A DNA stretch of 22,636 nucleotides from a virus, in the IMG/VR virus record IMGVR_UViG_3300003702_000042, positions 1 through 22,636 of that record; one strand, 5' to 3'. Position numbers and translations under genes: made by a program. Shown here piece after piece: positions 1,152 through 21,595 of the stretch (positions within the stretch are counted from its first letter, which is position 1; each line of letters starts with the position of its first letter). The notes beneath the pieces are model-generated. The model made no database searches. It saw only the letters and a program-made list of their open reading frames with translations, and was not told where the DNA came from.

Positions 1152-1163
1152 ATATATACACTT
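1152..1163 (-). promoter_or_regulatory. Phage promoter-like motif P1
   Basis: On the minus strand this reads AAGTGTATATAT, in the short gap before the fibre gene starting at 1136. It is a variant (GTGTAT) of the GTGTAA motif found before eight other genes. Its first G is 25 bases from the ATG, the longest spacing in the set, and this is the one case with an evident Shine-Dalgarno sequence between motif and ATG. Confidence 0.5.
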
Positions 1164-1164
1164 T

Positions 1165-2616
1165 TTAATAGAGGGGCATGTAATTCGTTACTACCAACCC
1201 GCTTGATTGCTCCAACTCTAAATAAAATCTTTCAAAATCTCCTGTACCTCCGTCCATTAGTCCTGTAGTTTCCAAAAGATGAAAGTCTTCCAGTTCTCTA
1301 TCTGATAAAAACCCACTCATAAAAAGCCCTTTGGATAAATCGTCGGGATCTATTTCTGTGCTAAAATTCGCCGAAAATTGCTTATTCTCCCCTATTGCAG
1401 TCGTATAAGAAAATTGATCCAATTTTGCCCTGTTGAAGAAATACTTAATTAGCGGTTCGGTTCTGGTTTCGAAAGGAACTGTTCCCGCTTGAATCGGTTC
1501 TCCCGTTTGGGGAGTATCGCACGTTTGAGGCATGTCTAAAGTCACAGTGAAATTGTAATCTTGATTTAAATTGATCAAATCAATTAAAGATCCTGAATTC
1601 ATCCCTGAAACTATTCCGTTTATATTCAAGCTGACCGGTGCGGTGAAATTGACTTTTCTAGTTAGCGGAAATTTGTAACCCAAATTGTTTTCTGTTCCCC
1701 TAGGTATGTCGAAAGAGATTGAATAAGATTCCAAATGTAAAGAATCAAAATCTATTCCCAATCCAGAAAAAGAGTCTACGGTAAAATTAATATCTCCCGG
1801 TCTGACTACGGATACCGGATTTCTTTCTACCCTTCTCGGTATCGAACAGTGCATATCTTCGTATTGATTTCCGCTTTTCGGATCTATCATCGGACTTGAG
1901 AAGTTGTCTCCGCTTGTTTCGAACATTACGTTTTCCGCGACGTAAGAAACTTCTACTTTCGGAATCCTAGCGACCGCAGCTTCTGTTTGGTAAGATGTCA
2001 TGTAACATCTACCAAAAGAGATAACATTATATCCCGTAGCGTTAGGATCTATAGTTTCCTGAGGATCTCTTTCTGTTAATATTTCCGGTTTGGCCCCAGT
2101 ATAAAGATCGCTGCCATCTCCCCTGACTACCAAGTAAAAATTTTTCCTGTCTCGATATGTTCTCGCTGGGAAAAACGGATCATAAGTTCCCGCCTCGTAA
2201 TAATAATTTTTATGTTCTTCTTCGTCTACGAAACCAGAAAGAATTGTATGTCCTGTATTGTTAGAAAAGAACGGAGCGCCAGAGAATGGTTCTTCGAATT
2301 GAGGATAATTGACGTACAAACCCATCTTAGATTCATTAGATAGATCAGCTACAAAATAATTAAATGAAAAATTAACCTGAGGAGGGTTTATTATAGGTCT
2401 CCCCAGAACAGACCTAGTGTTTAATTGATTGATCTGCGTGTGAGGTATGGATATATCGTACGCTAGAGACTGAACTCTATCTATTTGTTTTATTAAGTTG
2501 TGGGTTAATAATGGATTTGAATAATCATCGTGAGGATTTTCACCAATATAACTTAAAAAATTATTTCCAGATGGCCCTATGAAAAGTCCCTCTACATTGT
2601 ATATTACTCTTGACAT
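1165..2616 (-). CDS. Tail-tube-like phage structural protein
   Basis: 483 aa. Its ATG overlaps the portal stop by one base (TAATG), so the two are probably translationally coupled. Residues about 47-105 contain RVQSLAYDISIPHTQINQL, then PIINPPQVNFSFNYFVAD and NESKMGLYVNYP. This order (short beta strand, proline-rich segment, then a long beta strand before a conserved Gly-Leu) resembles tail-tube or major tail proteins of tailed phages as I remember them. The remainder is beta-rich with few Cys and no signal peptide. Its place directly after TerL and portal supports a virion role. It could instead be another baseplate or tail protein. Structural role is likely; tail-tube identity is only moderate. 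Confidence 0.55.
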   Translation of the reverse strand: MSRVIYNVEGLFIGPSGNNFLSYIGENPHDDYSNPLLTHNLIKQIDRVQSLAYDISIPHTQINQLNTRSVLGRPIINPPQVNFSFNYFVADLSNESKMGLYVNYPQFEEPFSGAPFFSNNTGHTILSGFVDEEEHKNYYYEAGTYDPFFPARTYRDRKNFYLVVRGDGSDLYTGAKPEILTERDPQETIDPNATGYNVISFGRCYMTSYQTEAAVARIPKVEVSYVAENVMFETSGDNFSSPMIDPKSGNQYEDMHCSIPRRVERNPVSVVRPGDINFTVDSFSGLGIDFDSLHLESYSISFDIPRGTENNLGYKFPLTRKVNFTAPVSLNINGIVSGMNSGSLIDLINLNQDYNFTVTLDMPQTCDTPQTGEPIQAGTVPFETRTEPLIKYFFNRAKLDQFSYTTAIGENKQFSANFSTEIDPDDLSKGLFMSGFLSDRELEDFHLLETTGLMDGGTGDFERFYLELEQSSGLVVTNYMPLY

Positions 2617-4541
2617 TATTCAGCATCATATTTGCTACAATGTAAAATACCTGCTAGAAAATCATCTACTTGATGTTCGTAAGCTATAGACTGTATCTCT
2701 TTCACTCTCTCCTCGTTTCTATCAATTGGTTCCGCAGCATAACGTCCCGCTTTAGCTAACCAGTTTTCCGGATCTTCGTTTTGTATAACTATGTTGGAAA
2801 TTTGTTGAGCTATTTCCTTTTGATGTTTATTTAAGCGTTTCCTGCTGTGCAGGTGTCTTAATGCCGCTTCCACTTCCGTGTTCAACTTGTCCGCCAAGTT
2901 AAGGTTATCTTTAATTTTAGTTAAACTAAATTTTATTTCGGATGAAGCTTTGAGTCCTATTGGTTTTTTTGTATCAGTCTCTTTGGGTCTTCCCGTACCC
3001 TCTGGTCTCCCGGCCTGTTTGGGTACTGGCTTTTTGGCTGGTGTTCCTACTTGGGCGGGCTCCTTTTTGCCCATTATCGGTTCGTAAAAACCCTTGTCTT
3101 TAAGTTGTTTAAATTTCTCCTGAGATAATACAGACTCCTCTTCCGTCGGCATCCTGCCAGATTCGATTGCGTCGATTCCTTCCTTGGGAGTGAGAACGCC
3201 CAGTTCAATCAGCCTACTATAAACTCTAGCGTAAACTGAAGTGTCTTTCAAATCTAAATCTTCAAAATGAGGAGTCGGATAATTTTTAAAGCCCATAACT
3301 TTCGAAATTCTTTTCATTTCGGGAACAAGAAAATCATTTATAAATATCTTTCTTCCTTCGTTTAGTCTTTCCATGAAGACTTGAACTTTAACGCTGGAGT
3401 TCGAAAATTTTTCGTCACTAAGAAGGATGTTGTTTAACCCCATTTGTATGTCGTGATTTACGACTTCGTATTTTTTCGGATCTAAAATTCCAGCTATATC
3501 AGGGACCACGAATTTGGCTTGGGTTGTGTAATCAGAAATTAAAACTCTTCCCACAGATTCGTTCTCAAAAAGTTTCTGCATAGCGACAAGATTTTTTTGG
3601 TTTACTCCTCCTTTCTCCGGGTCTGTTCCCATCGTAACTAACAGAATGGCTTGGTTCGTGGTTCTGGTCAAAGCCATGTCCATTTTCTTCATCTCCTGCT
3701 TCCAGTTTATGTCTTCCAGAACTGGATAGCCCATGGGGACAGAAAAAGGTTCATAATCTTGTTTTTTATAGAATACTGCTGTTATTTTTTCGGCCGGAAG
3801 AGGTATCGTAACTGAATTAAGATGAAGTTTTCCTTTATCTCCTTTGATTTTTTTTCGGGTTTCCGGATCTAGATTTTCAAGCACCTGAATATCCTCTTCT
3901 GTTCTGGGGTTCCGAAGCCTTTCCAGTTCGTAATCGGTTAGTACTTTTTGGAACTGACCGGAAGAGAAAGTTATATTTCCGGATATTTGAATATCAGCAG
4001 GGTTGAGAATTATATATTTTACCGGAAGAGAAAAAGACGCATCGTTTTGGATTCCAAATGTCTGGGTCATTCTGCCAATATCTTTTTTGGATAGGCTGGC
4101 GTCAAACCGATGAATAAAAACATTACCGGATCTATAGTATTCCCTGAAGAATCTGCTTTGAAGGCTATTTATATTAATTTTAGAAAATAAAGCTTCGAAA
4201 AAATCTCTAGATTTTGAGCTCCCTCCAGTCAGGTACATGTCGGTCATGGAGAATTCGGTCATTAAATCTATAGTATTTCTGAAGACGGAGAAATTATAAT
4301 AAGCTTTCTGACAAAGGATAATGGTATCCCTTACGTCCAGACTGGAATTATTCGCCATCCCTTGGGAATATTTAAATGGAATGATACCATCATCGATGTT
4401 TTTATAACGGTCTGTCCTTTCAATAGAGCCCGATCTATTACGTCTCGATCTAGTTGATGCGAAAGATTCCTCAGGGGCGATACCAGCCATTAAAGGCTCC
4501 TTAAGGGAATTTTCCAGCTTAGGTTTTCTACTTACAGCCAT
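2616..4541 (-). CDS. Portal protein
   Basis: 641 aa, ATG at 4541. It lies 22 bases after the TerL stop, and the gap carries a GTGTAAAATT promoter-like motif. Size, position directly after TerL, and the N-terminal half fit a phage portal: residues about 70-100 read RDTIILCQKAYYNFSVFRN, like the portal region where a helix precedes the clip domain, and YYRSGNVFIHRFDAS follows. Portals form the dodecameric ring at the capsid vertex through which TerL pumps DNA and to which the tail attaches. Residues about 490-535 form a Lys/Pro/Gly-rich low-complexity linker (EPAQVGTPAKKPVPKQAGRP), followed by a charged helical C-terminal segment ending in YDAE. That tail is unusual for a portal and might bind capsid or scaffold proteins. 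No Shine-Dalgarno sequence is visible. Confidence 0.75.
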   Translation of the reverse strand: MAVSRKPKLENSLKEPLMAGIAPEESFASTRSRRNRSGSIERTDRYKNIDDGIIPFKYSQGMANNSSLDVRDTIILCQKAYYNFSVFRNTIDLMTEFSMTDMYLTGGSSKSRDFFEALFSKININSLQSRFFREYYRSGNVFIHRFDASLSKKDIGRMTQTFGIQNDASFSLPVKYIILNPADIQISGNITFSSGQFQKVLTDYELERLRNPRTEEDIQVLENLDPETRKKIKGDKGKLHLNSVTIPLPAEKITAVFYKKQDYEPFSVPMGYPVLEDINWKQEMKKMDMALTRTTNQAILLVTMGTDPEKGGVNQKNLVAMQKLFENESVGRVLISDYTTQAKFVVPDIAGILDPKKYEVVNHDIQMGLNNILLSDEKFSNSSVKVQVFMERLNEGRKIFINDFLVPEMKRISKVMGFKNYPTPHFEDLDLKDTSVYARVYSRLIELGVLTPKEGIDAIESGRMPTEEESVLSQEKFKQLKDKGFYEPIMGKKEPAQVGTPAKKPVPKQAGRPEGTGRPKETDTKKPIGLKASSEIKFSLTKIKDNLNLADKLNTEVEAALRHLHSRKRLNKHQKEIAQQISNIVIQNEDPENWLAKAGRYAAEPIDRNEERVKEIQSIAYEHQVDDFLAGILHCSKYDAE

Positions 4542-4550
4542 AATTACTTT

Positions 4551-4562
4551 AATTTTACACTT
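4551..4562 (-). promoter_or_regulatory. Phage promoter-like motif P2
   Basis: Minus strand AAGTGTAAAATT, between the TerL stop and the portal ATG. The first G is 19 bases from the ATG, with no Shine-Dalgarno sequence between. It would allow portal and downstream virion genes to be expressed separately from the packaging genes upstream. Confidence 0.6.
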
Positions 4563-4563
4563 G

Positions 4564-6384
4564 TTATACCATTCTTGGAATAAAAGTTGAATTAACTTCC
4601 TCTACTTTTAAATTTTTCATGTCATTATAAGCTTTGACTGCCCAATTAGCTAACATTAATGAAGTATAATTGTCTTTTCTGGCTCTGTTTGCCGAAGTAC
4701 TTCTTTTGAGATGCTGGGGAAGATCGAAAGTTTGGGTTCCCTTCGGGGTAGTTTTGACCTCTATTAGGGCACATTGTCTTTTCGTTTGATATATGAGATC
4801 GTCTTGAGCTTCAATCAATTCTCCCATATCTTTAAACTGGGTTAGCTTTAAGGGTACTCTCACCGAGGAAGCTGTGGAGAAAAAGCTTCCGCAAGCCGCT
4901 GTTCTCGAAGCGAAAAATATTCTTTTATGGTCTATACAGGACTGAAGATATTCGTTTCCATTTCTGATAAAGTCAGAGCTGAACACTTGCTTAAAACAAA
5001 TAACATGATTTTTTAGATTATATTCTCTTTTGACTCTCTTTAATTCCAGTTCGTAATCTACACCTAATTTTTCAGTATTAAAATCAAAAAACTTAATTTC
5101 AATACCAGCCCCTCTAAAAAGTTCCGATTCATTTGCCCCATCTATAAATTGATACCCGGCGTTGTCAATAATTATCATTTTTATATTAAAATGTTTATAA
5201 AGATAAAAAAGATATTTTATGTGATCTTTCAAATCTCCTCCAGCAACAGCATAAGCGTGAACTAAGGTGTAAGAATCTTCATTTAATTCCATAACCGACA
5301 TCGCAAAATAATCCGAACTCGGACTGTTACTGAAACTTGGGTCAATAGCTAAAATATATTCCTTGTCAGAGCTTCCTGCTATTTTTGTATGTGGAGCTTC
5401 GCCATCAAGAACAGTACATTCGTGCATTTTTTTAGCGCTAAAGTAACTATCGCTGCCATCTGTAAATTGAGCGCAATATTCTCTTTGAAAAGAAGAATGA
5501 GATTCTCCTCCAGATCTAGCTTCTTCTATAATAGTTTCATCAATCATGTCTTCGGGAAGAGAGCGGTATCCCATTTGGGATACAAAGTAATTGGACTGAA
5601 GAATGTCATCAGAATAAATATTACCCATCCACTCTTTATAAGTTTTATAGAGGTTTTCAAAACTGTAACTAGCAGAGGACAATGCAATCATTTTTGAATT
5701 ATTTTCAAAAACCATTCTATCCTTCTCTTTCATTTTCCCCTCTGTGATCAAATTGTCTTCGATTTCTCTTATTTTGATTCTTTCCGCAATATCTTGAGGA
5801 GCTACTAAAAATGGCATAAGCACCGTTCTTATTGTGTCTTCTGGTAAAAGCATAAACTCATCCAAAACAAGGATATTAGCACGAAAACCACGAATCTTTT
5901 CTCCGCTCAGAGGGATTGCTGTAATTGTCCCTCCGTTTATTCTCCATTCATGTTGATCGTTACGTTTAGATTTCGCACCAAAAGCGTGAGCTAACATTTG
6001 AGCTTCTTTTGATTCAACTATTTTTTCTATATTATTGAAAATAAATCTAGCTGTACGAAAAGTCGGACCCGCAATCAATATCTTCGTGCGAGGTTCGAAG
6101 ATGCACTGGAGAAAACAATAAATGGCCGCAATAAAAGTTTTACCACATCCACGTCCCCAAATGCACATATTAAAGTTTCTATTGAAGAACGCCTTAAGTG
6201 TTATTTCCTGATAAGCGGCCAACTTAACTCCGGAAACTAATTCCGTAGTGAAACCTAAGTTAGCCCTCAAAAACCTAGCTAAAGAAATTTTAGCTTGTTT
6301 ATCTTCCAGCGACCCTTTCAGCTGGAGGAATTGTTCATTTACGTTTTCTAATTTTCGGGAATATTTTTCCGGCTCATACCACAT
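4564..6384 (-). CDS. terL: Terminase large subunit (TerL), packaging ATPase-nuclease
   Basis: 606 aa. The N-terminal ATPase has a Walker A motif at residues 76-83 (WGRGCGKT), the arginine-containing form typical of TerL. Walker B is at 171-176 (ILVLDE, catalytic Glu176), and coupling motif ALSSAS is at 234-239. The C-terminal RNase H-like nuclease shows Asp348 in LAIDPS, Asp407 in IIIDNAG, and acidic residues near the end in AQDDLIYQ. The protein drives ATP-powered DNA packaging into the prohead and cuts the concatemer at start and finish. The gene follows the ERCC4 nuclease by 15 bases and precedes the portal. The ATG at 6384 is the first start that fits; no strong Shine-Dalgarno sequence is seen. 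Key residues look intact, so it should be active. Confidence 0.95.
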   Translation of the reverse strand: MWYEPEKYSRKLENVNEQFLQLKGSLEDKQAKISLARFLRANLGFTTELVSGVKLAAYQEITLKAFFNRNFNMCIWGRGCGKTFIAAIYCFLQCIFEPRTKILIAGPTFRTARFIFNNIEKIVESKEAQMLAHAFGAKSKRNDQHEWRINGGTITAIPLSGEKIRGFRANILVLDEFMLLPEDTIRTVLMPFLVAPQDIAERIKIREIEDNLITEGKMKEKDRMVFENNSKMIALSSASYSFENLYKTYKEWMGNIYSDDILQSNYFVSQMGYRSLPEDMIDETIIEEARSGGESHSSFQREYCAQFTDGSDSYFSAKKMHECTVLDGEAPHTKIAGSSDKEYILAIDPSFSNSPSSDYFAMSVMELNEDSYTLVHAYAVAGGDLKDHIKYLFYLYKHFNIKMIIIDNAGYQFIDGANESELFRGAGIEIKFFDFNTEKLGVDYELELKRVKREYNLKNHVICFKQVFSSDFIRNGNEYLQSCIDHKRIFFASRTAACGSFFSTASSVRVPLKLTQFKDMGELIEAQDDLIYQTKRQCALIEVKTTPKGTQTFDLPQHLKRSTSANRARKDNYTSLMLANWAVKAYNDMKNLKVEEVNSTFIPRMV

Positions 6385-6399
6385 GTTAATCTAAATCAT

Positions 6400-7338
6400 T
6401 CATAAGGTTTTCGAATCATAGGCTAATTGTAAATCTATATCTTTATATTCGCAATTACTAAAGAATATTCTTTTCATTACTCTAACTGATTCAATACGAT
6501 CTTTTACGAAAAGAAACTGAATGTTCGGGTATTCTTGAATAACTGATCTTATATTATGAAAAATATGTTTGGGGTTAGTCCTAACTCCCTTTTTGTAGGT
6601 TCTTTTTAACTTGTTAAAGACGAGACTGGAGGAGAGATCGTTTTCTACTAAAATAATCAAATTGGCTCCTTCCTCTTCGGACCTTTCTATTTCGTTGCAA
6701 AAACGTTCGTACCCCCCACTTAACGTGCCTATTAGATCTTGAATAGATTTTCTTTCTATATAACAATTACATGTCAACTCTTTATTACTTAAACAATAGT
6801 CTCCATATTTTAAGCCCTTAACTTCTGTTGGGTAGTCCGGTATTTCTAGGGGCTGATGTTCTCTTGTGTCTATATATATTTTATATTTCTTTTCATCGTC
6901 GGGAATATAACTCATGGGGCTGTTAATTTTTTTATATTTAGGTTCAAGCCCTATGCTTCGGCAGAGCTCTTCATAATCGCCGAAAAGTTTTTCGTAATAA
7001 CCCACCGATGGAGACATAAGGGATCTTAATTCAACTTGGCTCGGAGCAAATTCTAGATCCTTCTTTTTTTTTCTTTCCACAAGAAACTCTTTAAAATAAC
7101 TTTTCGCAATGCTGGGATTTACCGAGCTAAGCCATTTTTTTAGATTGTTTTTATTATTGAAATCGGAAGAAAAATAATTTTCTTTATTTATGAAATTAAT
7201 CAATTGATCATCATACCTGTCTCTTCTTGGGAAATATTTATGATAATAGTCCTTGATTTTTAATTTGTGAACTTTAAGGTGGGAATGCAAATTTCTTTCG
7301 CCCACAAAATTTTTGCTACACTCTTTGCATTTAACCAT
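6400..7338 (-). CDS. C2H2 zinc finger + ERCC4-type nuclease
   Basis: 312 aa. Residues 4-24 form a classical zinc finger, C4-x2-C7-x12-H20-x3-H24, followed by the KDYYHKYFP segment that often follows such fingers in phage DNA-binding proteins. Residues about 152-290 are an ERCC4 (XPF/MUS81-type) nuclease domain. DTRE is at 157-160, GDY at 179-181, and the metal-binding ERKSIQD at 195-201, matching the family ERKxxxD signature. It probably cleaves branched or flap DNA, for example to resolve replication or recombination intermediates before packaging; this is inference from domain and neighbour (TerL 15 bases downstream). The start overlaps the previous gene by 8 bases and has a strong Shine-Dalgarno sequence. 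Sequence between finger and nuclease is Lys-rich with no recognised domain. Confidence 0.87.
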   Translation of the reverse strand: MVKCKECSKNFVGERNLHSHLKVHKLKIKDYYHKYFPRRDRYDDQLINFINKENYFSSDFNNKNNLKKWLSSVNPSIAKSYFKEFLVERKKKKDLEFAPSQVELRSLMSPSVGYYEKLFGDYEELCRSIGLEPKYKKINSPMSYIPDDEKKYKIYIDTREHQPLEIPDYPTEVKGLKYGDYCLSNKELTCNCYIERKSIQDLIGTLSGGYERFCNEIERSEEEGANLIILVENDLSSSLVFNKLKRTYKKGVRTNPKHIFHNIRSVIQEYPNIQFLFVKDRIESVRVMKRIFFSNCEYKDIDLQLAYDSKTL

Positions 7339-8428
7339 TTAAAACCTCCTCTTCGGTTATTCCCATGATGCGGCATTTTATTTCGTCCATAGAAGAAAGA
7401 TTTTCGATTTCTTTTTTTAAGGTTTTTTTTCTTAAATCGGCGAGTTTTATCATTTTAACTCTAGTTTCCTCTTCTTTCCAAAGCTCCACTAAATTCAATA
7501 TAGAAGCGTTCTCTTTGATTTGTTTGCTCAGTCTATGACTTCTTTTTTCCTTGAGCTCATTGAGAAGTTTGGTTTGTCGGTTAACGCATTGGTTGTATTC
7601 TGTTTGGGCTGTGCTAATAGATTCCACAAGGCTCATGGCCAATCTTTTTCCCTCTGTCTCTTCAGCGGCTTGATCCAATAGCTCCTGAAGACGTTCAACT
7701 CTTATTTGAATATTAGAAGCTATGACAACTTCGGCAGAAAGTACAATGTATTGATCTACTTCTTCTTGAGTCAAATCAGGCTTATCGTTCGTGTATCTCA
7801 CGAAACTGCTTTCGAAAAGTTCTCTTTTTTTTAGAGAGTTGTAATTTGATATTTGATGCAAAAAACGATAAGTATGCATGTAGCCAATTAATTTAGAAAT
7901 ATTTTTCCTATCCGAAGCCCTGAGATTGTTTTTGTCTATACTCTCGTGGACGTATTTATTGATTCTGGCGATAGCTTTCAGCTCGCTTTTAGGGGGAGTA
8001 TAATCAGAAGGGGAAACTTCTTTAATTATTTCGGAAAGAACCACTTTGTCATCAATAGTTTTTAAATAATCGCTTACCGCCCTGTATCTGCAATCTAGAG
8101 GAGCTATGCTTTCATCAAAAAGTTCTCTAGCCATGTCTAGAGCTTTCATGGTGGAACAGTTATTGTAGATATACTCTCTCTCCTCTTCTCCTAATTCATA
8201 TTCTTTTTTGATATGAATAGATGTTACTGAAGCTTTTTTACCCTTCGAAGCCAAATATTTTCTTATCGCTTTTCCGTAAATGCTCCTACCGTCTCTGAAT
8301 GTTTCATCAACGAAAGGAAAGAGTTTATCAACCAAATCTTTTATCATCGGTGGCGTTTTGGAGTCCCACAAATTATCAATTTGAGTTTTTTGATTTTCTT
8401 CTAGTTTTATCTCCTGTTTCTTTTTCAC
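7331..8428 (-). CDS. Unknown helical protein, possible small terminase
   Basis: 365 aa with a GTG start at 8428 that overlaps the sigma-factor stop (GTGA), indicating translational coupling. I do not recognise a family with certainty. Residues about 20-130 look like a compact helical DNA-binding segment: SIYGKAIRKYLASKGKK resembles a helix-turn-helix, and a second helical unit contains EREYIYNNCSTMKALDMARE. Residues about 215-345 are strongly helical and charged, with long coiled-coil character (VERLQELLDQAAEETEGKRL through KEIENLSSMDE). DNA-binding N-terminus plus oligomerising helices, two genes upstream of TerL, would suit a small terminase subunit. That is inference from layout and composition; a transcription or replication accessory role is equally open. 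Confidence 0.6.
   Translation of the reverse strand: MKKKQEIKLEENQKTQIDNLWDSKTPPMIKDLVDKLFPFVDETFRDGRSIYGKAIRKYLASKGKKASVTSIHIKKEYELGEEEREYIYNNCSTMKALDMARELFDESIAPLDCRYRAVSDYLKTIDDKVVLSEIIKEVSPSDYTPPKSELKAIARINKYVHESIDKNNLRASDRKNISKLIGYMHTYRFLHQISNYNSLKKRELFESSFVRYTNDKPDLTQEEVDQYIVLSAEVVIASNIQIRVERLQELLDQAAEETEGKRLAMSLVESISTAQTEYNQCVNRQTKLLNELKEKRSHRLSKQIKENASILNLVELWKEEETRVKMIKLADLRKKTLKKEIENLSSMDEIKCRIMGITEEEVLNG
7345..7350 (-). promoter_or_regulatory. Strong Shine-Dalgarno for the ERCC4 nuclease gene
   Basis: AGGAGG on the minus strand, 6 bases before the ATG at 7338 and lying inside the end of the upstream gene. It is the best ribosome-binding site in the window and supports this start. 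It shows the phage uses Shine-Dalgarno initiation inside operons, unlike most motif-led genes. Confidence 0.75.
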
Positions 8429-9114
8429 AAATTTAAATCTCCCTCTGATATTAATTCTTTTGCTTTTTGTATTATTATTTTTTTTAAATTTTTTATCTGC
8501 TTGTATCCCGGGCTTCTATTTTTTTCGGAAGTTTTGTATCCCAACATTTTGGCTACTTCTTGTTCTGTTTTGCTTTTAAGATATAAATTTTCGTAAACGA
8601 TCCATTCGTTTATTTTGAGTTTAATCTTTAATTGCGTATTAAGTTTGCTAAAAAGCAAATCGAATTCAAAATCTTGAAGGGGAACATCGAGCATTTTTGG
8701 GGATGTGGTTTCCAGAGAGGCTGGCAGTTTGGTTTCATAGGCTACTTTTTTAGTTTTCTCCCATTGAGCATATAGGGGACAAGCTGGACCTTGAGAGCCG
8801 TATATGTAACATAAAGTGTCTGATTCTGCAGCGGCGCACTTAAGGCATGGGCGGCAATAATTTCCATAGTTATTCCTTATCAGATTTTTTATCTGGTTGG
8901 ATATTATTCGGTTAACCCAAGGAGCCAGAGGTTTCGATTGATCGTAAAGATGCCATTTTTTGAAAACGTGGATTCTTATTATTTGAGACACATCATCAAA
9001 ATCCATCCAAGCAAGAGCAGTAAGGTTCCACCTTTTTTTTCTTTTTTTGATTTCTAGGTCTATTTTTTTAGAACAATCTTCAAACTTTAGCTTTTTTTTT
9101 CTTTTTTTTGGCAT
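8425..9114 (-). CDS. Phage-encoded RNA polymerase sigma factor with Cys cluster
   Basis: 229 aa. Residues about 30-82 match sigma-70 region 2: acidic DFDDVSQIIRIHVFKKW, then APWVNRIISNQIKNLIRN, the pattern that binds core polymerase and melts the -10 element. Residues about 165-215 look like a region 4 helix-turn-helix (SKTEQEVAKMLGYKT). Between them lies an unusual cysteine group, Cys87, 90, 93, 102 and 112, possibly a zinc or iron-sulfur site. The first 30 residues are extremely Lys-rich and are encoded by A8, A9 and similar homopolymer runs. The gene starts 2 bases after the zinc-ribbon gene. Role inferred: redirecting host RNA polymerase to phage promoters, plausibly the GTGTAA-type motifs found here. 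Region 2 assignment is good; promoter pairing is hypothesis. Confidence 0.8.
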   Translation of the reverse strand: MPKKRKKKLKFEDCSKKIDLEIKKRKKRWNLTALAWMDFDDVSQIIRIHVFKKWHLYDQSKPLAPWVNRIISNQIKNLIRNNYGNYCRPCLKCAAAESDTLCYIYGSQGPACPLYAQWEKTKKVAYETKLPASLETTSPKMLDVPLQDFEFDLLFSKLNTQLKIKLKINEWIVYENLYLKSKTEQEVAKMLGYKTSEKNRSPGYKQIKNLKKIIIQKAKELISEGDLNL

Positions 9115-9116
9115 CC

Positions 9117-9452
9117 TTAGGACTTCTTTATGCTCCCGGCGTCCTTTAAGAAGTCCTCTTCAATGGTACCTTTAGAATAACTCGAGTCTTTTTCTCGAAC
9201 GAATGCGTTTTCTCCTTCTGCCGCACTGCCTATTATATCTTCCAGCTTGTCTTCATGTCCTTTATTGACATTTAATTCGAATTCCAGAGAAGATATACTG
9301 GTGGTGAAACCTTCCTCTTCGTCTTCCTCTTCGTCTCTGTCTATTGTGTACGCGGTTGTCTTTGCATATAATTTTCCACAACTACCGCAGAACTTAGGCT
9401 TATTAAGCACATAGGAGTATCCTGATCCGCAACTTTGGCAATATACCTTCAT
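9117..9452 (-). CDS. Small zinc-ribbon acidic protein
   Basis: 111 aa. The N-terminus carries a zinc ribbon, C5-x2-C8-x13-C22-x2-C25 (CQSC...CGSC). A very acidic stretch, DRDEEEDEEEG, lies near residues 38-48, and the C-terminal part is charged. Zinc ribbons of this kind often bind nucleic acid or RNA polymerase. It is the first gene of the minus-strand unit and sits 2 bases before the sigma factor, so a transcription co-factor role is attractive but unproven. The start at ATG 9452 is 15 bases after the G of a GTGTAAATCA motif, with no Shine-Dalgarno sequence. Confidence 0.75.
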   Translation of the reverse strand: MKVYCQSCGSGYSYVLNKPKFCGSCGKLYAKTTAYTIDRDEEEDEEEGFTTSISSLEFELNVNKGHEDKLEDIIGSAAEGENAFVREKDSSYSKGTIEEDFLKDAGSIKKS

Positions 9453-9457
9453 ATTAG

Positions 9458-9469
9458 TGATTTACACTA
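9458..9469 (-). promoter_or_regulatory. Phage promoter-like motif P3
   Basis: Minus strand TAGTGTAAATCA, preceded by an AT-only stretch (TATAAAATATA). It lies 15 bases before the ATG of the zinc-ribbon gene and would head the zinc-ribbon/sigma/unknown/nuclease/TerL unit. It faces P4 across about 40 bases, so this gap is a divergent promoter region. Confidence 0.6.
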
Positions 9470-9504
9470 TATATTTTATAAAGAAATTTTTTTTTAACCA
9501 AAAA

Positions 9505-9516
9505 AAGTGTAAAATA
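9505..9516 (+). promoter_or_regulatory. Phage promoter-like motif P4
   Basis: Plus strand AAGTGTAAAATA, 19 bases from first G to the ATG at 9526. It supports this ATG over an in-frame GTG at 9457, which lies upstream of the motif and inside the divergent promoter region. Confidence 0.6.
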
Positions 9517-9525
9517 ATAAAAGCC

Positions 9526-9795
9526 ATGGAAAAGATTAAGTTTAAAAATTCGGACGGAATAGAGTATGAGCTAATATGGAGAAGGCCCCATTACAAATAC
9601 AACGCTGATGGTTTATGCTATTCTCCTGAACTTGATAACCCAAAAATCCTAGTTGACCCCAAATTAAAAAAAAGAAGGAAACTGAGTACTCTTATAGAAG
9701 AAGTGACCCACGCTTTTTTCTGGGAAAAGAACGAAAAAGAAGTGGGAAAGTTTTCTTCAGTTTTGGCGGGTTTAATTAATAAACAGATCAAATAG
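9526..9795 (+). CDS. Small putative metallopeptidase-like protein (EExxH variant)
   Basis: 89 aa from ATG 9526. The layout GLCYSPELDNPKILVDPKLK, then LSTLIEEVTHAFFW, then KEVGKFSSVLAGLI matches small phage proteins I recall in which the middle segment is a zinc-peptidase HExxH helix (LDTLIHExxHAxxxD). Here the helix reads E58-E59-V60-T61-H62, so the first zinc-ligand His is replaced by Glu. It may be a catalytically dead or altered-metal relative. The 3' end overlaps the convergent PhoH-like gene by 8 bases. No signal peptide or membrane segment is seen. Family assignment rests on pattern memory, so moderate confidence in function but good confidence in the gene. Confidence 0.7.
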   Translation: MEKIKFKNSDGIEYELIWRRPHYKYNADGLCYSPELDNPKILVDPKLKKRRKLSTLIEEVTHAFFWEKNEKEVGKFSSVLAGLINKQIK

Positions 9796-10549
9796 TTTCC
9801 CATAGCGCCACTTTGCTGACAATAAACTTGGTCAACTCTGACCGAACGATATCTTCCGTTGCAAACTCAAAAGTTTCGATTCCCATTTTTTTACTCTCTT
9901 CGTTATCAAAAATATGAAAAATTTTTTCAAACCCCCCTCTTTGACCATTTTTAAGGTCGCTTTGCATAGGATCAGCCAATATAAAGGCTCGAGAGAATTT
10001 TCCTATCCTTGTTAAAACAGTGACTATCTCCCTTATGGAACTGTTTTGGGCTTCATCCAACACCACCGCTTTAGAATTCCAACTCATACCTCGGGCAAAG
10101 TTTACGGGGTGAATGGAGACCCTTTTTTCTTTTTGGAGTTTTTTGACTGTTGTCTCGTGTAAAAGCTCATCCAATTTGTCCATAAAGGGTAAATTATAAT
10201 AATGAAGTTTTTCGTCTGCGTCCCCCGGTAAAAACCCCAATCGCGAGTCAGAGCTTTCTACTGCTGATCGCATGTATATAATGTCTGAAACTTTACTGAG
10301 GTTAAGTAGATTCAGTGCGGAATAAACCGCGATAAGGGTTTTGGAACTTCCCGCTGGACCCTTGCATAAAATTACCCTAGTGCTTTTTTTAAGAGATATA
10401 TCAATGAATTTTTTTTGTTTCTCTGTCCAGTTGAGTTCATCTATATAGAAAGTGTCTTTCGGTTTCAGAGTTTCCCTTTGGTGAACCCTCACTTTCCCGT
10501 CCAAAATTTCAAGGGCCTGAAAATCCCTTGTGCTCTTTACTTTCGGCAT
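9788..10549 (-). CDS. phoH: PhoH-family P-loop ATPase
   Basis: 253 aa from ATG 10549; a TTG three bases upstream could add one residue but is less likely. Walker A is at residues 64-71 (GPAGSSKT) and Walker B at 162-169 (VVLDEAQN). The later ADPMQSD segment (192-198) corresponds to the GDPxQ motif of PhoH and related superfamily 1-type ATPases, with Ala in place of Gly. RSAVESSDSRLGFLPGD is also characteristic of PhoH. PhoH proteins are very common in marine phages; their role there is unsettled, with RNA or nucleotide metabolism suggested. The gene is single, divergent from the MscS-like gene and convergent with the small peptidase-like gene. ATP-binding residues are intact. Confidence 0.92.
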   Translation of the reverse strand: MPKVKSTRDFQALEILDGKVRVHQRETLKPKDTFYIDELNWTEKQKKFIDISLKKSTRVILCKGPAGSSKTLIAVYSALNLLNLSKVSDIIYMRSAVESSDSRLGFLPGDADEKLHYYNLPFMDKLDELLHETTVKKLQKEKRVSIHPVNFARGMSWNSKAVVLDEAQNSSIREIVTVLTRIGKFSRAFILADPMQSDLKNGQRGGFEKIFHIFDNEESKKMGIETFEFATEDIVRSELTKFIVSKVALWETI

Positions 10550-10555
10550 CAATTG

Positions 10556-10567
10556 TATTTTACACTA
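10556..10567 (-). promoter_or_regulatory. Phage promoter-like motif P5
   Basis: Minus strand TAGTGTAAAATA, 16 bases before the PhoH ATG at 10549. It matches P4 at eleven of twelve positions. No Shine-Dalgarno sequence lies between motif and start. Confidence 0.6.
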
Positions 10568-10578
10568 AATCAGTGTAA
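10560..10578. repeat. Perfect inverted repeat joining two divergent promoter motifs
   Basis: TTACACT-AAATC-AGTGTAA: two 7-base arms with a 5-base spacer. Each arm is the GTGTAA motif of one of the divergent genes (PhoH to the left, MscS-like to the right). The symmetry may simply be two promoters back to back, or a site for a dimeric regulator. Confidence 0.85.
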
Positions 10579-10582
10579 TTGT
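10571..10582 (+). promoter_or_regulatory. Phage promoter-like motif P6
   Basis: Plus strand CAGTGTAATTGT, 22 bases before ATG 10595. It supports starting the MscS-like gene at 10595 rather than at an upstream in-frame start inside the opposite-strand phoH gene. Confidence 0.55.
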
Positions 10583-10594
10583 TTAAGAAAAGTT

Positions 10595-11086
10595 ATGAAT
10601 GAGATTACCAATGTTATTTCTCAAGTGGGAGGCTTAATGGAGAAAGGGGGAATAACCACCGAACAAACCGAAAAAATCGCTCAAGACTTAATCGGAGAAT
10701 ACGGGTGGTTAGTGCTGGTTGGACTTCTTGCTATATTAGCGAAAGATACGATGATAAACTTTGTACAAGCTATAATGGTATTCGCCGGAAGTTCATTCAA
10801 TAATGATGATATAATTTATATTTCGGGCCGTCAGGCTAGAATAGTAAGGGTTGGCGTGAGAAGTACTACCTTTTATATGACCGACAGAAAAACCAAAATG
10901 GTCGTTCCGAACGAACAGTTAAAACAATTAACCATTGAAAAAACCCTTTGCCAAAACGGATCGGTGCCTTACCTTATGAAGGGCGGGGACGAAGGTTTTA
11001 TTGGATTCAGAGAAGTTCCCGTTCCACCCTCTCCGCTGGAGGTAAGGGTTGTTGATGAAGAAAAACCTCCCTCTAGGAGAAAATAA
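10595..11086 (+). CDS. MscS-like mechanosensitive-channel domain protein
   Basis: 163 aa from ATG 10595. An N-terminal soluble helix (1-33) is followed by one hydrophobic segment (about 36-50, GWLVLVGLLAILA). Residues about 54-116 align by eye with MscS TM3b plus the beta domain: INFVQAIMVFAGSSFNNDD for NFxxGxxxxxxxPFxxGD, then YISGRQARIVRVGVRSTTF, then KTKMVVPNEQL with the conserved Pro-Asn (105-106). The C-terminal 45 residues are Pro-rich and charged. It lacks the full TM1-TM2 sensor paddle, so it would be a minimal form. It probably inserts in the host inner membrane; osmotic, lysis-timing or exclusion roles are all speculation. It is the first gene of the plus-strand accessory set. Confidence 0.7.
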   Translation: MNEITNVISQVGGLMEKGGITTEQTEKIAQDLIGEYGWLVLVGLLAILAKDTMINFVQAIMVFAGSSFNNDDIIYISGRQARIVRVGVRSTTFYMTDRKTKMVVPNEQLKQLTIEKTLCQNGSVPYLMKGGDEGFIGFREVPVPPSPLEVRVVDEEKPPSRRK

Positions 11087-11098
11087 TATGTTATGATT

Positions 11099-11110
11099 AT
11101 GTGTAAGCAA
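11099..11110 (+). promoter_or_regulatory. Phage promoter-like motif P7
   Basis: ATGTGTAAGCAA, 19 bases before ATG 11120. The motif falls inside the longest reading of the next gene (from 11093), which argues that 11120 is the real start. Confidence 0.45.
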
Positions 11111-11119
11111 ATATTAGAT

Positions 11120-11308
11120 ATGAAAGAATCGAGAATTACATACAACGATCTTTGGGAAGACTTGAAGAAAGAGGAAGCTCTTGCAGACGAAAAAGCTGGC
11201 TATCCTCCAAAGTGCAATCCGGGATACGAAGCGACCAAAGACGGAAAAAAGTGCGTTAAGGTGACCAAAGCTTTACATAAGAGCGGAATACCTAAAAAGA
11301 GTTATTAA
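11120..11308 (+). CDS. Small protein of unknown function with a Cys pair
   Basis: 62 aa from ATG 11120; a longer reading from 11093 adds nine residues but would start upstream of the promoter-like motif. The first half is a charged helix (NDLWEDLKKEEALADEKAG). It is followed by PPKCNPGYEATKDGKKCVKV, with two cysteines 13 residues apart that could form a disulphide loop or half of a metal site. The C-terminus is basic. No signal peptide or membrane segment. I do not recognise the family. Confidence 0.6.
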   Translation: MKESRITYNDLWEDLKKEEALADEKAGYPPKCNPGYEATKDGKKCVKVTKALHKSGIPKKSY

Positions 11309-11327
11309 GTTATTTCTCTTATAAAAA

Positions 11328-11339
11328 AAGTGTAAATAC
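11328..11339 (+). promoter_or_regulatory. Phage promoter-like motif P8
   Basis: AAGTGTAAATAC following a poly-A run, 16 bases before ATG 11346, with no Shine-Dalgarno sequence in between. Confidence 0.6.
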
Positions 11340-11345
11340 ATCTGT

Positions 11346-11585
11346 ATGAAAAAGTACGTGATGTTAGCTTTGCTAAGCTCTCTAATAGCTTGCACAAATA
11401 AAGAAGCTACGCCGAAAGCTTCTGGAGATACTAACGTAGTCGAAGAAAAATCCTTCGGTCAGAAGTTAAAGGAAAAAGTAGTCAAGCAAGCCACAGAAAC
11501 TGTTGTAGACAAAACAGTAGACAAAGTAGCGGAGAAGGCTAAAGACGAAGCCAAAGATAAATTACTAAAGGTTTTACTTCCTTAA
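11346..11585 (+). CDS. Small phage lipoprotein
   Basis: 79 aa. The N-terminus MKKYVMLALLSSLIAC is a signal peptide with a good lipobox (L13-I14-A15-C16), so Cys16 should be lipidated and the protein anchored to a membrane. Position +2 is Thr, not Asp, which in typical Gram-negative hosts favours the outer membrane. The mature part is a short linker followed by a highly charged amphipathic helix of about 40 residues (VVKQATETVVDKTVDKVAEK). Phage lipoproteins of this size are known as outer spanin subunits and superinfection-exclusion proteins. Nothing here decides between them, and no partner inner spanin was recognised nearby. Confidence 0.75.
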   Translation: MKKYVMLALLSSLIACTNKEATPKASGDTNVVEEKSFGQKLKEKVVKQATETVVDKTVDKVAEKAKDEAKDKLLKVLLP

Positions 11586-11594
11586 TGTAAAATA
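11583..11594 (+). promoter_or_regulatory. Promoter-like motif before a gene-free 98-base gap
   Basis: TAATGTAAAATA overlaps the stop of the lipoprotein gene and differs from the shared motif at the first G. It is followed not by a gene but by two hairpins, the second being a terminator. It may start a small RNA. Confidence 0.35.
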
Positions 11595-11599
11595 TATCA

Positions 11600-11660
11600 A
11601 ACTTCAGTCCCTGAAAAGCGACTGCCAGCCCTGATTCAAATAGATCAGGGCTTTTGGTAT
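11600..11660 (+). ncRNA. Candidate small RNA ending at a terminator
   Basis: Between the promoter-like motif at 11583-11594 and the terminator lies about 30 bases with a short hairpin, CAGTC (11605-11609) pairing with GACTG (11620-11624). There is no start codon with a sensible frame. A transcript starting near 11600 would be about 60 nt and hairpin-rich. The alternative is that this is only the 3' end of the lipoprotein mRNA. Confidence 0.3.
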
Positions 11661-11666
11661 CTTTTT
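11627..11666 (+). terminator. Rho-independent terminator
   Basis: A perfect 9-bp stem, AGCCCTGAT (11627-11635) with ATCAGGGCT (11644-11652), an 8-base loop, then a T-rich tail (TTTGGTATCTTTTT). It lies between the lipoprotein gene and the promoter-like motif of the fibre operon, separating the accessory genes from the fibre genes. Confidence 0.8.
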
Positions 11667-11678
11667 ATGTGTAATTTA
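11667..11678 (+). promoter_or_regulatory. Phage promoter-like motif P9
   Basis: ATGTGTAATTTA directly after the terminator and 15 bases before ATG 11684. No later motif of this type precedes a plus-strand gene, so it probably drives the whole fibre operon to the right edge. Confidence 0.55.
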
Positions 11679-15972: not shown

Positions 15973-17088
15973 ATGAGTTTAACAAAACCAACATTAGATA
16001 ATTTAAGAGCGGCCGGAGCAACGGTGGGGGATGTTTATTTCCCGCTGACGAAACTGTTGCTGCCGTTTGATGGATCGAACGGAGCGACGACAACGAGCGA
16101 CTTAAGTAATTCTAACCATACCGCGACTTTTGTTGGGAACGCTCAAATTTCCACAGCGCAAAGCAAGTTTGGGGGGAGCAGTTTATATTTAGATGGAAGC
16201 GGGGATGAAATAGACCTAGGATCAAGTTCCGATTGGAATTGGCCAACACCATCAGGCGCATCTGGCGATTTCACCATAGAATTTTGGCATCGTAGGACAG
16301 CAACGGTTGCGTGGGCTAGCTTTTTTAGCACATATGCCACAATTGGTGCGGCTGGTTTTATTTTTGGGTATCAAGATTCTACTGATAAGTTGGGATGGTA
16401 CAACGGCACTTGGTATTACGCCAGCGGTAGCGGTAATACTGCGGTGGCTGTTGATACTTGGTATCATATAGTTGCGGTAAGGTATGGTAGTACCACCAAG
16501 CTTTATCTGAATGGCGTAGAGGAGCTTAGTTTTACCGATAGTGGTTCTTACGGTACTGCCAAGCTGTGGCTCGGTAGCCGAGGGACGTCGGCCTATGTCC
16601 AAGGATACATGGATGATGTTCGTATCACGAAAGGTTTTGCTCGTTACACTTCCGCTTTCACTCCTCCAACTTCTGCTCATTTGACTTCTGCCGGTGACGT
16701 CAACAAACAGATTTTAATCAATTCAACCGCCGATGGAGTCGCGATAGGAACCGGCGGCATAAACCAAGCACGAATTGCGAAAGCGTGGGTTAATTTTAAT
16801 GGAACAGGAACAGTAGCGATAAGGGGAAGTTATAACGTAAGTAGTTTAACGGATGATGGAACCGGTAAATATAAAGTTAATTTTTCAACAGTAATGTCAG
16901 ACATTAATTATTCTGCGGTTGTAGATGGAAAGTATTCGGAAAGTGATGATGCCCTATATAACACATTCGGTTCTCTTAGAAGAATAGCGACGGCCACTTC
17001 ATACGTCGCTGTTAGGGGTGTTGGGGGGAACACGACGAGTACTTTCAGTGATATTACAACGTGCACTGTAATAGTTTTCGGGAATTAA
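15973..17088 (+). CDS. LamG-domain receptor-binding/fibre protein, copy 1
   Basis: 371 aa, starting 2 bases after the large fibre stop. Head type A (MSLTKPTLDNLRAAG). Residues about 26-232 are a LamG/concanavalin-like jelly roll: LLLPFDG, DFTIEFWHRR (99-108), DTWYHIVAVR (151-160), KLYLNG, then GYMDDVRITKGFARYT (211-226). A conserved linker, GDVNKQILINSTADGVAIGT, leads to the phage fibre tip module ARIAKAWVNFNGTGTVAIRG, common at the C-terminus of fibres in aquatic phages as I recall. Its last 60 residues are tip type X (AVVDGK, SLRRIA, YVAVR), shared with copy 6. Likely binds host surface sugars; the ligand is unknown. Confidence 0.82.
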   Translation: MSLTKPTLDNLRAAGATVGDVYFPLTKLLLPFDGSNGATTTSDLSNSNHTATFVGNAQISTAQSKFGGSSLYLDGSGDEIDLGSSSDWNWPTPSGASGDFTIEFWHRRTATVAWASFFSTYATIGAAGFIFGYQDSTDKLGWYNGTWYYASGSGNTAVAVDTWYHIVAVRYGSTTKLYLNGVEELSFTDSGSYGTAKLWLGSRGTSAYVQGYMDDVRITKGFARYTSAFTPPTSAHLTSAGDVNKQILINSTADGVAIGTGGINQARIAKAWVNFNGTGTVAIRGSYNVSSLTDDGTGKYKVNFSTVMSDINYSAVVDGKYSESDDALYNTFGSLRRIATATSYVAVRGVGGNTTSTFSDITTCTVIVFGN

Positions 17089-17091
17089 AAA

Positions 17092-18225
17092 ATGAAAGAA
17101 TTTTTATTAAATGAAATTAAAGCAACCGGGACGACAACGGGCGACGTTTACTTTCCGCAGACAAAACTTTTGCTGCCGTTCGATGGAACGAACGGGGTGC
17201 AGACAACGAATGACTTAAGTAATTTAAACAACGCTATAACTTTCGGTAATCAAGCATCAATCTCGACGGCTCAAAGCAAATTTGGTGGATCGAGTTGTCA
17301 TTTCGACGGTACTGGGGATTATGTTGATGTCGGTGGGTCTTATTGGCAGGACGCCATTAACAGTGGAGATTTTACCCTTGAATTTTGGTTATATGTAGAT
17401 GCTCATGGAGGAACCAGCCAGTCTTGGATTAACAGTTACGGAAATAATGCTGCAGGATGGGGACTTTATTGTGGTCCAAATAGGAACTTGTATTGGTGGC
17501 ATTATATAGGTGGATGGGGATATATAAATTATGCTCAAGGAAGTCGAACAGTTTTATCTCTAGATACGTGGCATCACTGCGCTGTTACAAGGTCAGGAAG
17601 TACTTGGCGAATGTTTTTGAATGGAACGCAGGAAGATTCCATAACAAACAGCGGTACTATAGGTACACAAAACGGTGCCATTCAGAGTGGAATACGTCTC
17701 GGAACAATAAATGTAGGTCATGATTATCCTGTTAATGGTTATATGGATGATCTTCGCATCACCAAGGGAGTCGCTCGTTATACGTCTAATTTTACTGCAC
17801 CAACAATCGCTTTACCTACTGTCGCCGGTGACATCAATAAACAAATTCTTATTAACGAAACTGCTGACGGAGTGGCAATAGGAACCGGTGGCATAAACCA
17901 AGCGCGGATTGCAAAGGCGTGGGTAAACTGGAATGGTACGGGGACTGTCGCAATTAGAGACTCCTACAATGTTAGTTCTGTGTCGGATAGAGCTACTGGT
18001 AAATATACAGTTAACTTTTCAACAGCAATGAGCGATACAAATTATTCAGGAGCCGGTAACGCAGGATTCAATACTACAAACGGCGGGGCTGACAATTTTA
18101 ATAGATGTCTACATTTTATTCCTTATACAACTTCCGCTGCTTACGCTAATAGTTTTATAGGAGATGCATCGAGCCCCTCACTTAGTGATTGTCACGTATG
18201 TACTTTGTTAGTTTTCGGGAATTAA
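17092..18225 (+). CDS. LamG-domain receptor-binding/fibre protein, copy 2
   Basis: 377 aa, ATG 3 bases after copy 1. Head type B (MKEFLLNEIKATGTTTGD). The LamG core is residues about 25-234, with DFTLEFWLYVD (93-103), DTWHHCAVTR (158-167) and GYMDDLRITKGVARYT. Its surface loops are unusually Trp/Tyr-rich (LYWWHYIGGWGYINYAQG), as often seen at sugar-binding sites. The linker and AKAWVN module are conserved. The C-terminal end is tip type Y (NRCLHFIPYTT, YANSF, and a CHVC pair), matching copy 4 rather than its immediate neighbours. Confidence 0.82.
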   Translation: MKEFLLNEIKATGTTTGDVYFPQTKLLLPFDGTNGVQTTNDLSNLNNAITFGNQASISTAQSKFGGSSCHFDGTGDYVDVGGSYWQDAINSGDFTLEFWLYVDAHGGTSQSWINSYGNNAAGWGLYCGPNRNLYWWHYIGGWGYINYAQGSRTVLSLDTWHHCAVTRSGSTWRMFLNGTQEDSITNSGTIGTQNGAIQSGIRLGTINVGHDYPVNGYMDDLRITKGVARYTSNFTAPTIALPTVAGDINKQILINETADGVAIGTGGINQARIAKAWVNWNGTGTVAIRDSYNVSSVSDRATGKYTVNFSTAMSDTNYSGAGNAGFNTTNGGADNFNRCLHFIPYTTSAAYANSFIGDASSPSLSDCHVCTLLVFGN

Positions 18226-18229
18226 AAAA

Positions 18230-19342
18230 ATGCCATTTAATAAACCAGATATATCTCAGTTAAGCGCCTTGGGAAGCTCCTTGGGGGATGTTTACTTTCC
18301 ACAGACGAAACTGTTGCTGCCGTTTGACGGAACAAATGGCGCAACGGCAACTAGTGATTTGAGTAATTCAAATCATACAATAACTTTTGTCGGCAACGCT
18401 CAAATTTCCACAGCGCAAAGTAAGTTCGGAGGGAGTAGTCTTTTATTGGATGGCACGGGGGATTATTTATCAGGAACTTTGAATTCCTCGTTAGGAGCTG
18501 GTAATTGGACTATTGATTGTTGGGTATTTTTACCAAATGTAACGCCAGATGATTGTTGGAAGGCTATCATCAGCATTGGAAACGGGCATAGTACCGCAGG
18601 TAGTATTTCTTTATATGCTCCCAGACATAATAGTACTGTAGGCTCAGCGGTAGTTATCCTTAATCAAGTTAATCCCGCCCTAGAGGGCACCACTAATATT
18701 AACGATAGTGCGTGGCATCACCTTGCGCTAGTTAAGAATGGTTCAACAACGAGCCTGTATGTAGACGGTACTTCTGAAGATTCATATTCTGATAGTCACA
18801 CTTATTCTCAAACGAGCCTATATGTCGGAACTACTCCTAATTGTACGAGTGGTGGGGATTTTGAGGGTTATATTGATGATCTAAGAATCTCCCAAGGTGT
18901 TGTCCGTTATACGTCAAATTTTACTCCGCCAACAATTGGAAATCTGACTTCTGCCGGTGACGTCAACAAACAGATCCTTATCAACTCGACCGCTGACGGA
19001 GTTGCAATAGGAACGGCGGGGATAAACCAAGCGCGAATCGCAAAGGCGTGGTGCAGGTTTGATGGAACTGCAGCCGCTGCAAGTATGATAGACGATTCTT
19101 ATAATGTGAGCAGCATGACTGATAATGGTACAGGAGATTATTCAATAAATTTTTCAACGGCTATGGTTAGCGCAAACTATACAGCATTTGGATCTGTGGG
19201 ATCAGGATCTGTTGATACTTATGTTGGAACACTAATGCGACCTCAAACTTACAGTACAACTTCTTTTCGATTCAAGATGGGGTATACACATAGTACACCT
19301 TATGATTATGCGCAAAATTCGGTACTAATTTTCGGGAATTAA
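18230..19342 (+). CDS. LamG-domain receptor-binding/fibre protein, copy 3
   Basis: 370 aa, starting 4 bases after copy 2. It has head type A (MPFNKPDISQLSALG), like copy 1, with which it also shares the NAQISTAQSKFGGSSL block. The LamG core spans residues about 26-234 (NWTIDCWVFLPN, AWHHLALVKN, GYIDDLRISQGVVRYT). The tip module is altered: AWCRFDGTAAAASMIDDSYN replaces the usual GTGTVAIR. The end is tip type Z (YTAFGSVGSGS, TYSTTSFRF), as in copy 5. Several cysteines (residues 97, 109, 204) are not shared by the other copies. Confidence 0.82.
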   Translation: MPFNKPDISQLSALGSSLGDVYFPQTKLLLPFDGTNGATATSDLSNSNHTITFVGNAQISTAQSKFGGSSLLLDGTGDYLSGTLNSSLGAGNWTIDCWVFLPNVTPDDCWKAIISIGNGHSTAGSISLYAPRHNSTVGSAVVILNQVNPALEGTTNINDSAWHHLALVKNGSTTSLYVDGTSEDSYSDSHTYSQTSLYVGTTPNCTSGGDFEGYIDDLRISQGVVRYTSNFTPPTIGNLTSAGDVNKQILINSTADGVAIGTAGINQARIAKAWCRFDGTAAAASMIDDSYNVSSMTDNGTGDYSINFSTAMVSANYTAFGSVGSGSVDTYVGTLMRPQTYSTTSFRFKMGYTHSTPYDYAQNSVLIFGN

Positions 19343-19345
19343 AAA

Positions 19346-20473: not shown

Positions 20474-20476
20474 AAA

Positions 20477-21592: not shown

Positions 21593-21595
21593 AAA

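Follow-up and report, generated by a model that had tools for sequence, protein, structure and literature searches.

A probable GTGTA-type promoter element and a co-encoded ECF-like sigma factor as its likely reader in a group of uncultured, mostly marine phages

Phage late sigma factors and the present locus

The sigma factor gp36 from phage phiEco32 represents the nearest functional counterpart of the system described here, followed by gp55 from phage T4. In a cascade that begins at sigma70 early promoters, gp36, which lacks region 4, redirects the host RNA polymerase (RNAP) to tAATGTAtA, a -10-type element without a -35 from which transcription starts 6-8 bp downstream (PMC8948821). The 22,636-nt stretch analysed here, an IMG/VR virus record (IMGVR_UViG_3300003702_000042) referred to as the window, holds the motif GTGTA(A/T) before nine genes, and this motif, in the form (A)GTGTA(A/T)WW, is very probably the -10-type element of a late promoter without a -35, read by an extracytoplasmic function (ECF)-like sigma factor encoded in the same window. 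The likeness to phiEco32 comprises a phage sigma, a putative single -10-type element, the absence of a -35 signal and a cascade that would likewise start from sigma70, together with a promoter sequence close to AGTGTATA/AGTGTAAT. However, phiEco32 belongs to another phage group, the sigma of the window does hold region 4, and the exact consensus sites of phiEco32, as computed here, lie about 35-60 nt from the annotated starts and not on the ATG. Homology between the two sigma factors over their full length was considered and is not supported (hhalign probability 0.1, no profile similarity); against phrog_1740, the gp36 family, the window sigma gives a weak match restricted to region 2 (E 0.0018).

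gp55 from T4 has no equivalent of region 4 and is activated by the clamp. Its promoter, too, does without a -35 and consists of a -10-type box of 8 bp, roughly one helical turn before the start (PMC2988020). Packaging and tail genes downstream of such a box, and a clamp loader encoded in a relative of the window, extend the resemblance, whereas the T4 box is GTGTAATA-like and the window sigma bears region 4 and a four-cysteine module. A late sigma of the gp55 type was rejected for the window on account of region 4 and the different box. A third case, gp47 from phage 7-11, is a late sigma with region 4 that works with the host core RNAP in a phage whose early promoters are read by host sigma70 (PMC8948821), as would be the case here, but its promoters are bipartite (GTAAtg-(16)-aCTA). 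Finally, Deinococcus-Thermus bacteria hold leaderless genes with the -10 next to the open reading frame (PMC12340547), and the late promoters of the Thermus phage P23-45 are independent of a -35. The adjacency of the -10 element to the start codon is shared with the window, although the reader there is the host primary sigma, while here it is likely a phage sigma, and phage and habitat also differ.

Placement of the motif in the window and its relatives

An earlier note on this DNA had reported the motif before nine starts on both strands, and all nine are preceded by it, at a distance d, counted from the first base of GTGTAW to that of the ATG, of 15-25 nt (Table 1). The core GTGTAW stands, whereas only 4 of the 9 sites conform to the strict RGTGTAAAWW. 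Among window genes with at least 12 nt free upstream, 9 out of 10 hold the motif, the exception being the TerL start at 6384, with a gap of 15 nt. None of the 12 abutting or overlapping genes does (Fisher p 2e-5), in agreement with the reported absence before operon-internal genes. When the sequence was rotated against the gene coordinates, a mean of 0.27 genes had a site at 32 nt or less upstream, and nine such genes were reached in 0 of 2000 cases. The raw count of the hexamer over the window is unremarkable (14 vs 9.3 expected, with 7 of 100 shuffles reaching 14), so it is the position of the hexamer that carries the signal.

Table 1. Motif sites and proposed reader in the window (d in nt; position of the ATG in brackets)
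Feature	Coordinates	Strand	d (ATG)	Remarks
GTGTAT	1156..1161	-	25 (1136)	
GTGTAA	4555..4560	-	19 (4541)	Same place in G001, G002 and G013
GTGTAA	9462..9467	-	15 (9452)	Heads the Zn-ribbon/sigma/ERCC4/TerL operon
GTGTAA	9507..9512	+	19 (9526)	
GTGTAA	10560..10565	-	16 (10549)	PhoH-like gene
GTGTAA	10573..10578	+	22 (10595)	Divergent partner of 10560..10565
GTGTAA	11101..11106	+	19 (11120)	
GTGTAA	11330..11335	+	16 (11346)	
GTGTAA	11669..11674	+	15 (11684)	Opening gene of the tail-fibre/LamG operon
ECF-like sigma factor	8425..9114	-		Region 2 ~11-82; C90-C93-C102-C112 module; region 4 ~150-225 (AF2, Foldseek/VIA)
Small Zn-ribbon protein	9117..9452	-		CxxC..CxxC, acidic middle; opens the sigma operon; weak Pfam Zn-ribbon matches

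Individual sites are also conserved. The site with the largest d, at 1156, has an ortholog (TAAAAAGTGTATAATA/ATAT, d=25) in the relatives G001, G002 and G013, and the start at 11120, instead of a longer frame from 11093, is the one at which relatives begin with the same MKE. At the divergent gap between the PhoH and MscS-like genes (10557-10580), the late motifs stand face to face and form TTACACTaaatcAGTGTAA, an arrangement in which two polymerases would compete. The spacing between paired copies in the window is 7 nt for one divergent gap and 39 nt for the other.

With the sigma and TerL proteins as queries, about 150 loci were recovered from an uncultured, mostly marine phage group; these contigs are fragments, and their gene starts were called mechanically, with ATG only. 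Across IMG/VR relatives that number in the hundreds, GTGTAA is the top enriched hexamer, both in non-redundant upstream regions (128 vs 7.0 expected) and in the sigma-clade set, where 144 of 328 upstream regions hold it against 8.6 expected. It is strand-biased and nearly missing from the first 60 nt of genes; the family consensus reads (A)GTGTA(A>T)(T)(A)(T) with A/T before it. Divergent genes and those behind a 10-49 nt gap often carry the motif, and abutting ones seldom do: it stands at 68 of 99 divergent operon heads versus 4 of 184 abutting co-directional genes (p 8e-36), with a counterpart of 53/92 versus 14/285 in clade C (p 1e-26). This strand-specific placement at operon heads, the absence inside operons and a hard lower limit of 14 nt to the ATG, described below, support the earlier proposal of a promoter.

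No -35 partner emerged when information content was profiled relative to the motif: beyond 6 nt upstream, no position exceeds 0.13 bit. The profile otherwise shows only a weak leaning towards A/T at 4-5 nt upstream and towards T at position 6. TTGAC sites, tested as a partner, hold no fixed offset to the motif.

The sigma factor and its link to the motif

Region 2 of the window sigma is recognized by Pfam Sigma70_r2 (PF04542; E 2.7e-6, 27.5 bits, cut-off 24), and NCBIfam TIGR02937, the sigma70-ECF superfamily, spans residues 32-196 (E 5.7e-9), although its 35.8 bits are below the cut-off of 42.9. Region 4 found no match in the Pfam search, but AlphaFold models (mean pLDDT 69 and 78) give both a region-2 and a region-4 domain, and in the model residues 147-229 superpose on region 4 of SigD, SigE and SigL (rmsd 1.7-2.9 A over 62-73 residues). 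Among the Foldseek matches listed, those from the PDB are of the sigma or RNA polymerase/sigma type and those from the viral library are mainly phage sigmas; the whole-chain E values all exceed 0.001, a consequence of the uncertain position of the two sigma domains with respect to each other. A profile sequence search against the PDB returned nothing meaningful, and tblastn of the sigma against 50,697 GenBank phage records gave no match.

Between regions 2 and 4, the residues C90, C93, C102 and C112 are shared without exception by all 88 of the diverse homologues compared, and probably form a zinc module; we know of no module of such kind in other sigma factors. A search of the open-access literature found no paper on the motif or on a zinc-module sigma, an absence that proves little. 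The sigma operon of the window opens with the small Zn-ribbon gene, and in many relatives a small gene stands before that of the sigma; the Zn-ribbon protein might, speculatively, be a co-factor or co-regulator.

The earlier note had named the co-encoded sigma as the natural reader of the motif, a proposal that receives strong correlative backing, short of proof. The motif occurs in each of the three sigma clades examined and stays with the family to an identity as low as about 37%: it is kept in distant contigs whose sigma is 37-47% identical, in the form GTGTAT in the case of G014. When records were picked by the pattern AAAGTGTAATAT(3-9)ATG or by a scrambled pattern, and the composition of the matches listed was compared, the sigma gene was present in 9 of 80 motif-picked records versus 1 of 70 controls among those matches. 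The single sigma-bearing control, the 85.7-kb locus L370, has two or more motif sites, as does just one other control locus.

The alternative that survives best is that the host primary sigma reads the promoter as an extended -10 (GTG + TAATAT), maybe helped by a phage protein. The TAATAT that follows GTG matches TATAAT at 4 of 6 positions, and in P23-45 the sigmaA holoenzyme transcribes from middle and late promoters of just this extended -10 type (PMC7403470). However, a separate promoter class without the GTG (TTGACA-N16/17-TATAAT) is found in the same phages, the motif is constant across contigs of 27-45% GC and contigs binned to different bacterial groups, and it associates with the sigma gene, which makes this alternative improbable. 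The bins in question are labelled Flavobacteriales, Flavobacteriaceae and Halobacteriovorax; bin placement is weak evidence for a host, and no host is claimed. The motif had also been described as unlike both TATAAT and the T4 late box; it is distinct from the TTGAC/TATAAT promoters of the same phages, but bears some likeness to known late -10 elements (the 8-bp TATA box of T4 and tAATGTAtA of phiEco32).

Our preferred reading is thus that the phage ECF-like sigma binds the host core RNA polymerase and steers it to (A)GTGTA(A/T)WW sites. Initiation would take place about 14 nt past the first G, on the start codon or immediately ahead of it, and yield mRNAs that are leaderless or have a very short leader.

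Predicted transcript start and probable leaderless layout

The distance d piles up at 14-19 and drops sharply below 14 in the three separate sigma clades. Counts at d=13 versus d=14 are 3 vs 31, 0 vs 17 and 1 vs 60, and those at 6-13 versus 14-21 are 12 vs 129, 1 vs 42 and 5 vs 138 for clades A, B and C, respectively. Since a start codon cannot precede the transcription start, this wall suggests a +1 near position 14, which is the distance expected of a +1 from a -10 element. The start so predicted from the d distribution would lie about 6-7 nt past the 8-bp box. In genes with a more distant ATG, a T at 13/14 is followed by purine-rich positions 14-15, as in an initiator. Shine-Dalgarno (SD) sequences are found in 7, 6 and 2% of the motif genes versus 31, 16 and 20% of the operon-internal genes (clades A, B and C). 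The wall and the SD depletion suggest that the transcripts probably have no leader or almost none, a point absent from the earlier note. Predicted leaders in the window are 1-11 nt long, the longest being that of the gene at 1136, with a predicted start at about 1147 and an SD-like AAGGA.

As for the other promoter class, 53 upstream regions of clade C (L510-L589) contain a TTGACW box, and in 25 of them it stands 35 nt from the ATG. Transcription from either class therefore seems to begin at the ATG or close to it, and the early promoters of clade C look leaderless too.

The close and narrow spacing to the ATG and the SD depletion would also suit an element acting in the mRNA at the level of translation, such as a non-SD ribosome-binding or a protein-binding site. 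Operon-internal genes also need translation, yet only 4 of 184 carry the motif; the 14-nt wall and the T/purine signature at 13-15 suit a start site; and, with the canonical TTGACW class at 35 nt, starts near the ATG look normal in these phages, so that a translational role is very improbable. Least probable of all is an operator or other DNA-binding site, which the face-to-face pair at 10560-10578 and the enrichment of TTACAC upstream in relatives might suggest, since co-directional genes, too, are often preceded by an oriented copy (72/130 in clade A) and the pairs of the window are unequally spaced.

Proposed timing and cascade

In the 55.8-kb relative G002, the motif is absent from the 53 genes of the first 25 kb, an early/replication half with small genes and a clamp-loader gene, and in the other half, with packaging and tail genes, it precedes 14 out of 33 (p 1.8e-7). 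A 68-kb relative exhibits the same early/late tendency. This absence from the early half, together with the difference from the TTGAC/TATAAT promoters of the same phages, agrees with the view of the earlier note that the promoter is probably phage-specific, and supports its late use.

The head of the sigma operon holds a sigma70-type promoter in many relatives. In L031 and L041 this is TTGACA-N16-TATAAT without the motif, other relatives combine a TTGAAA-N16-TAAAAT-like promoter with GTGTAAT, and several clade B and C loci have a TATAAT-like sequence without the motif. The early-type promoter of the window is weak, with a sigma70-like TTGGTT-N17-TAAAAT that overlaps the motif at 9462..9467. 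The sigma70-type promoters at the operon head suggest an order from host sigma70 to phage sigma to late genes, to which the clade of the window would add a positive feedback. The sigma operon would first be transcribed from a promoter of the host sigma70 type, joined in the window's clade by the late motif, after which the packaging, portal and tail-fibre genes of the late module would be turned on.

Several observations weigh against assigning the motif to the phage sigma as a late promoter. The pairing of sigma and motif is a co-occurrence, and several motif-dense fragments have no sigma gene, although most of them hold homologues of the group's proteins. About one third of the divergent gaps lack the motif, some of them with sigma70-like promoters and some perhaps flanked by false open reading frames, and in clade B only 3 of 11 divergent heads have it; the mechanical calling of gene starts also bears on such counts. 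A 122-kb clade C contig has the motif spread over much of the genome, with no clean early/late split. Last, no -35 signal accompanies the motif even though the sigma keeps region 4.

A more far-reaching proposal, which we put forward tentatively and regard as doubtful in its entirety, is an undescribed phage sigma family, ECF-like with an invariant, zinc-type four-cysteine module between regions 2 and 4, that would recognize GTG+TAWWW in the manner of an extended -10 lacking a -35 and use this module in place of region 3.0 at the GTG; early and late promoters would both place the +1 on the start codon, and expression would be largely leaderless.

The analysis yields a putative transcription programme, and a testable promoter code with its likely reader, for a large uncultured phage group without a close relative among GenBank phages. 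The code would be usable for calling late operons and correcting gene starts from sequence alone, while the leaderless layout, the Cys4 insertion in the sigma and the convergence of the GTGTA -10 with the ATGTA of phiEco32 raise structural and translational questions.

Neighbouring genes

The minus-strand block of the window encodes PhoH, the Zn-ribbon protein, the sigma, a protein of unknown function, an ERCC4 nuclease, TerL, a probable portal (641 aa, the gene at 4541, right after TerL) and more virion-like genes, and the plus-strand block ends in collagen-like and LamG-like proteins of the tail-fibre type; the portal, collagen and LamG labels come from our own reading of the sequence. The plus-strand gene 10595-11086 encodes an MscS beta-domain-like protein (Pfam MS_channel_2nd, E 2e-5) in a phage genome. 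Downstream, a 1233-aa collagen-like protein is followed by six tandem LamG-like paralogues of about 370 aa (15973-22636, plus strand), most of them preceded by a near-identical TTTTCGGGAATTAAAAA junction, which is perhaps a tail-fibre diversification array.

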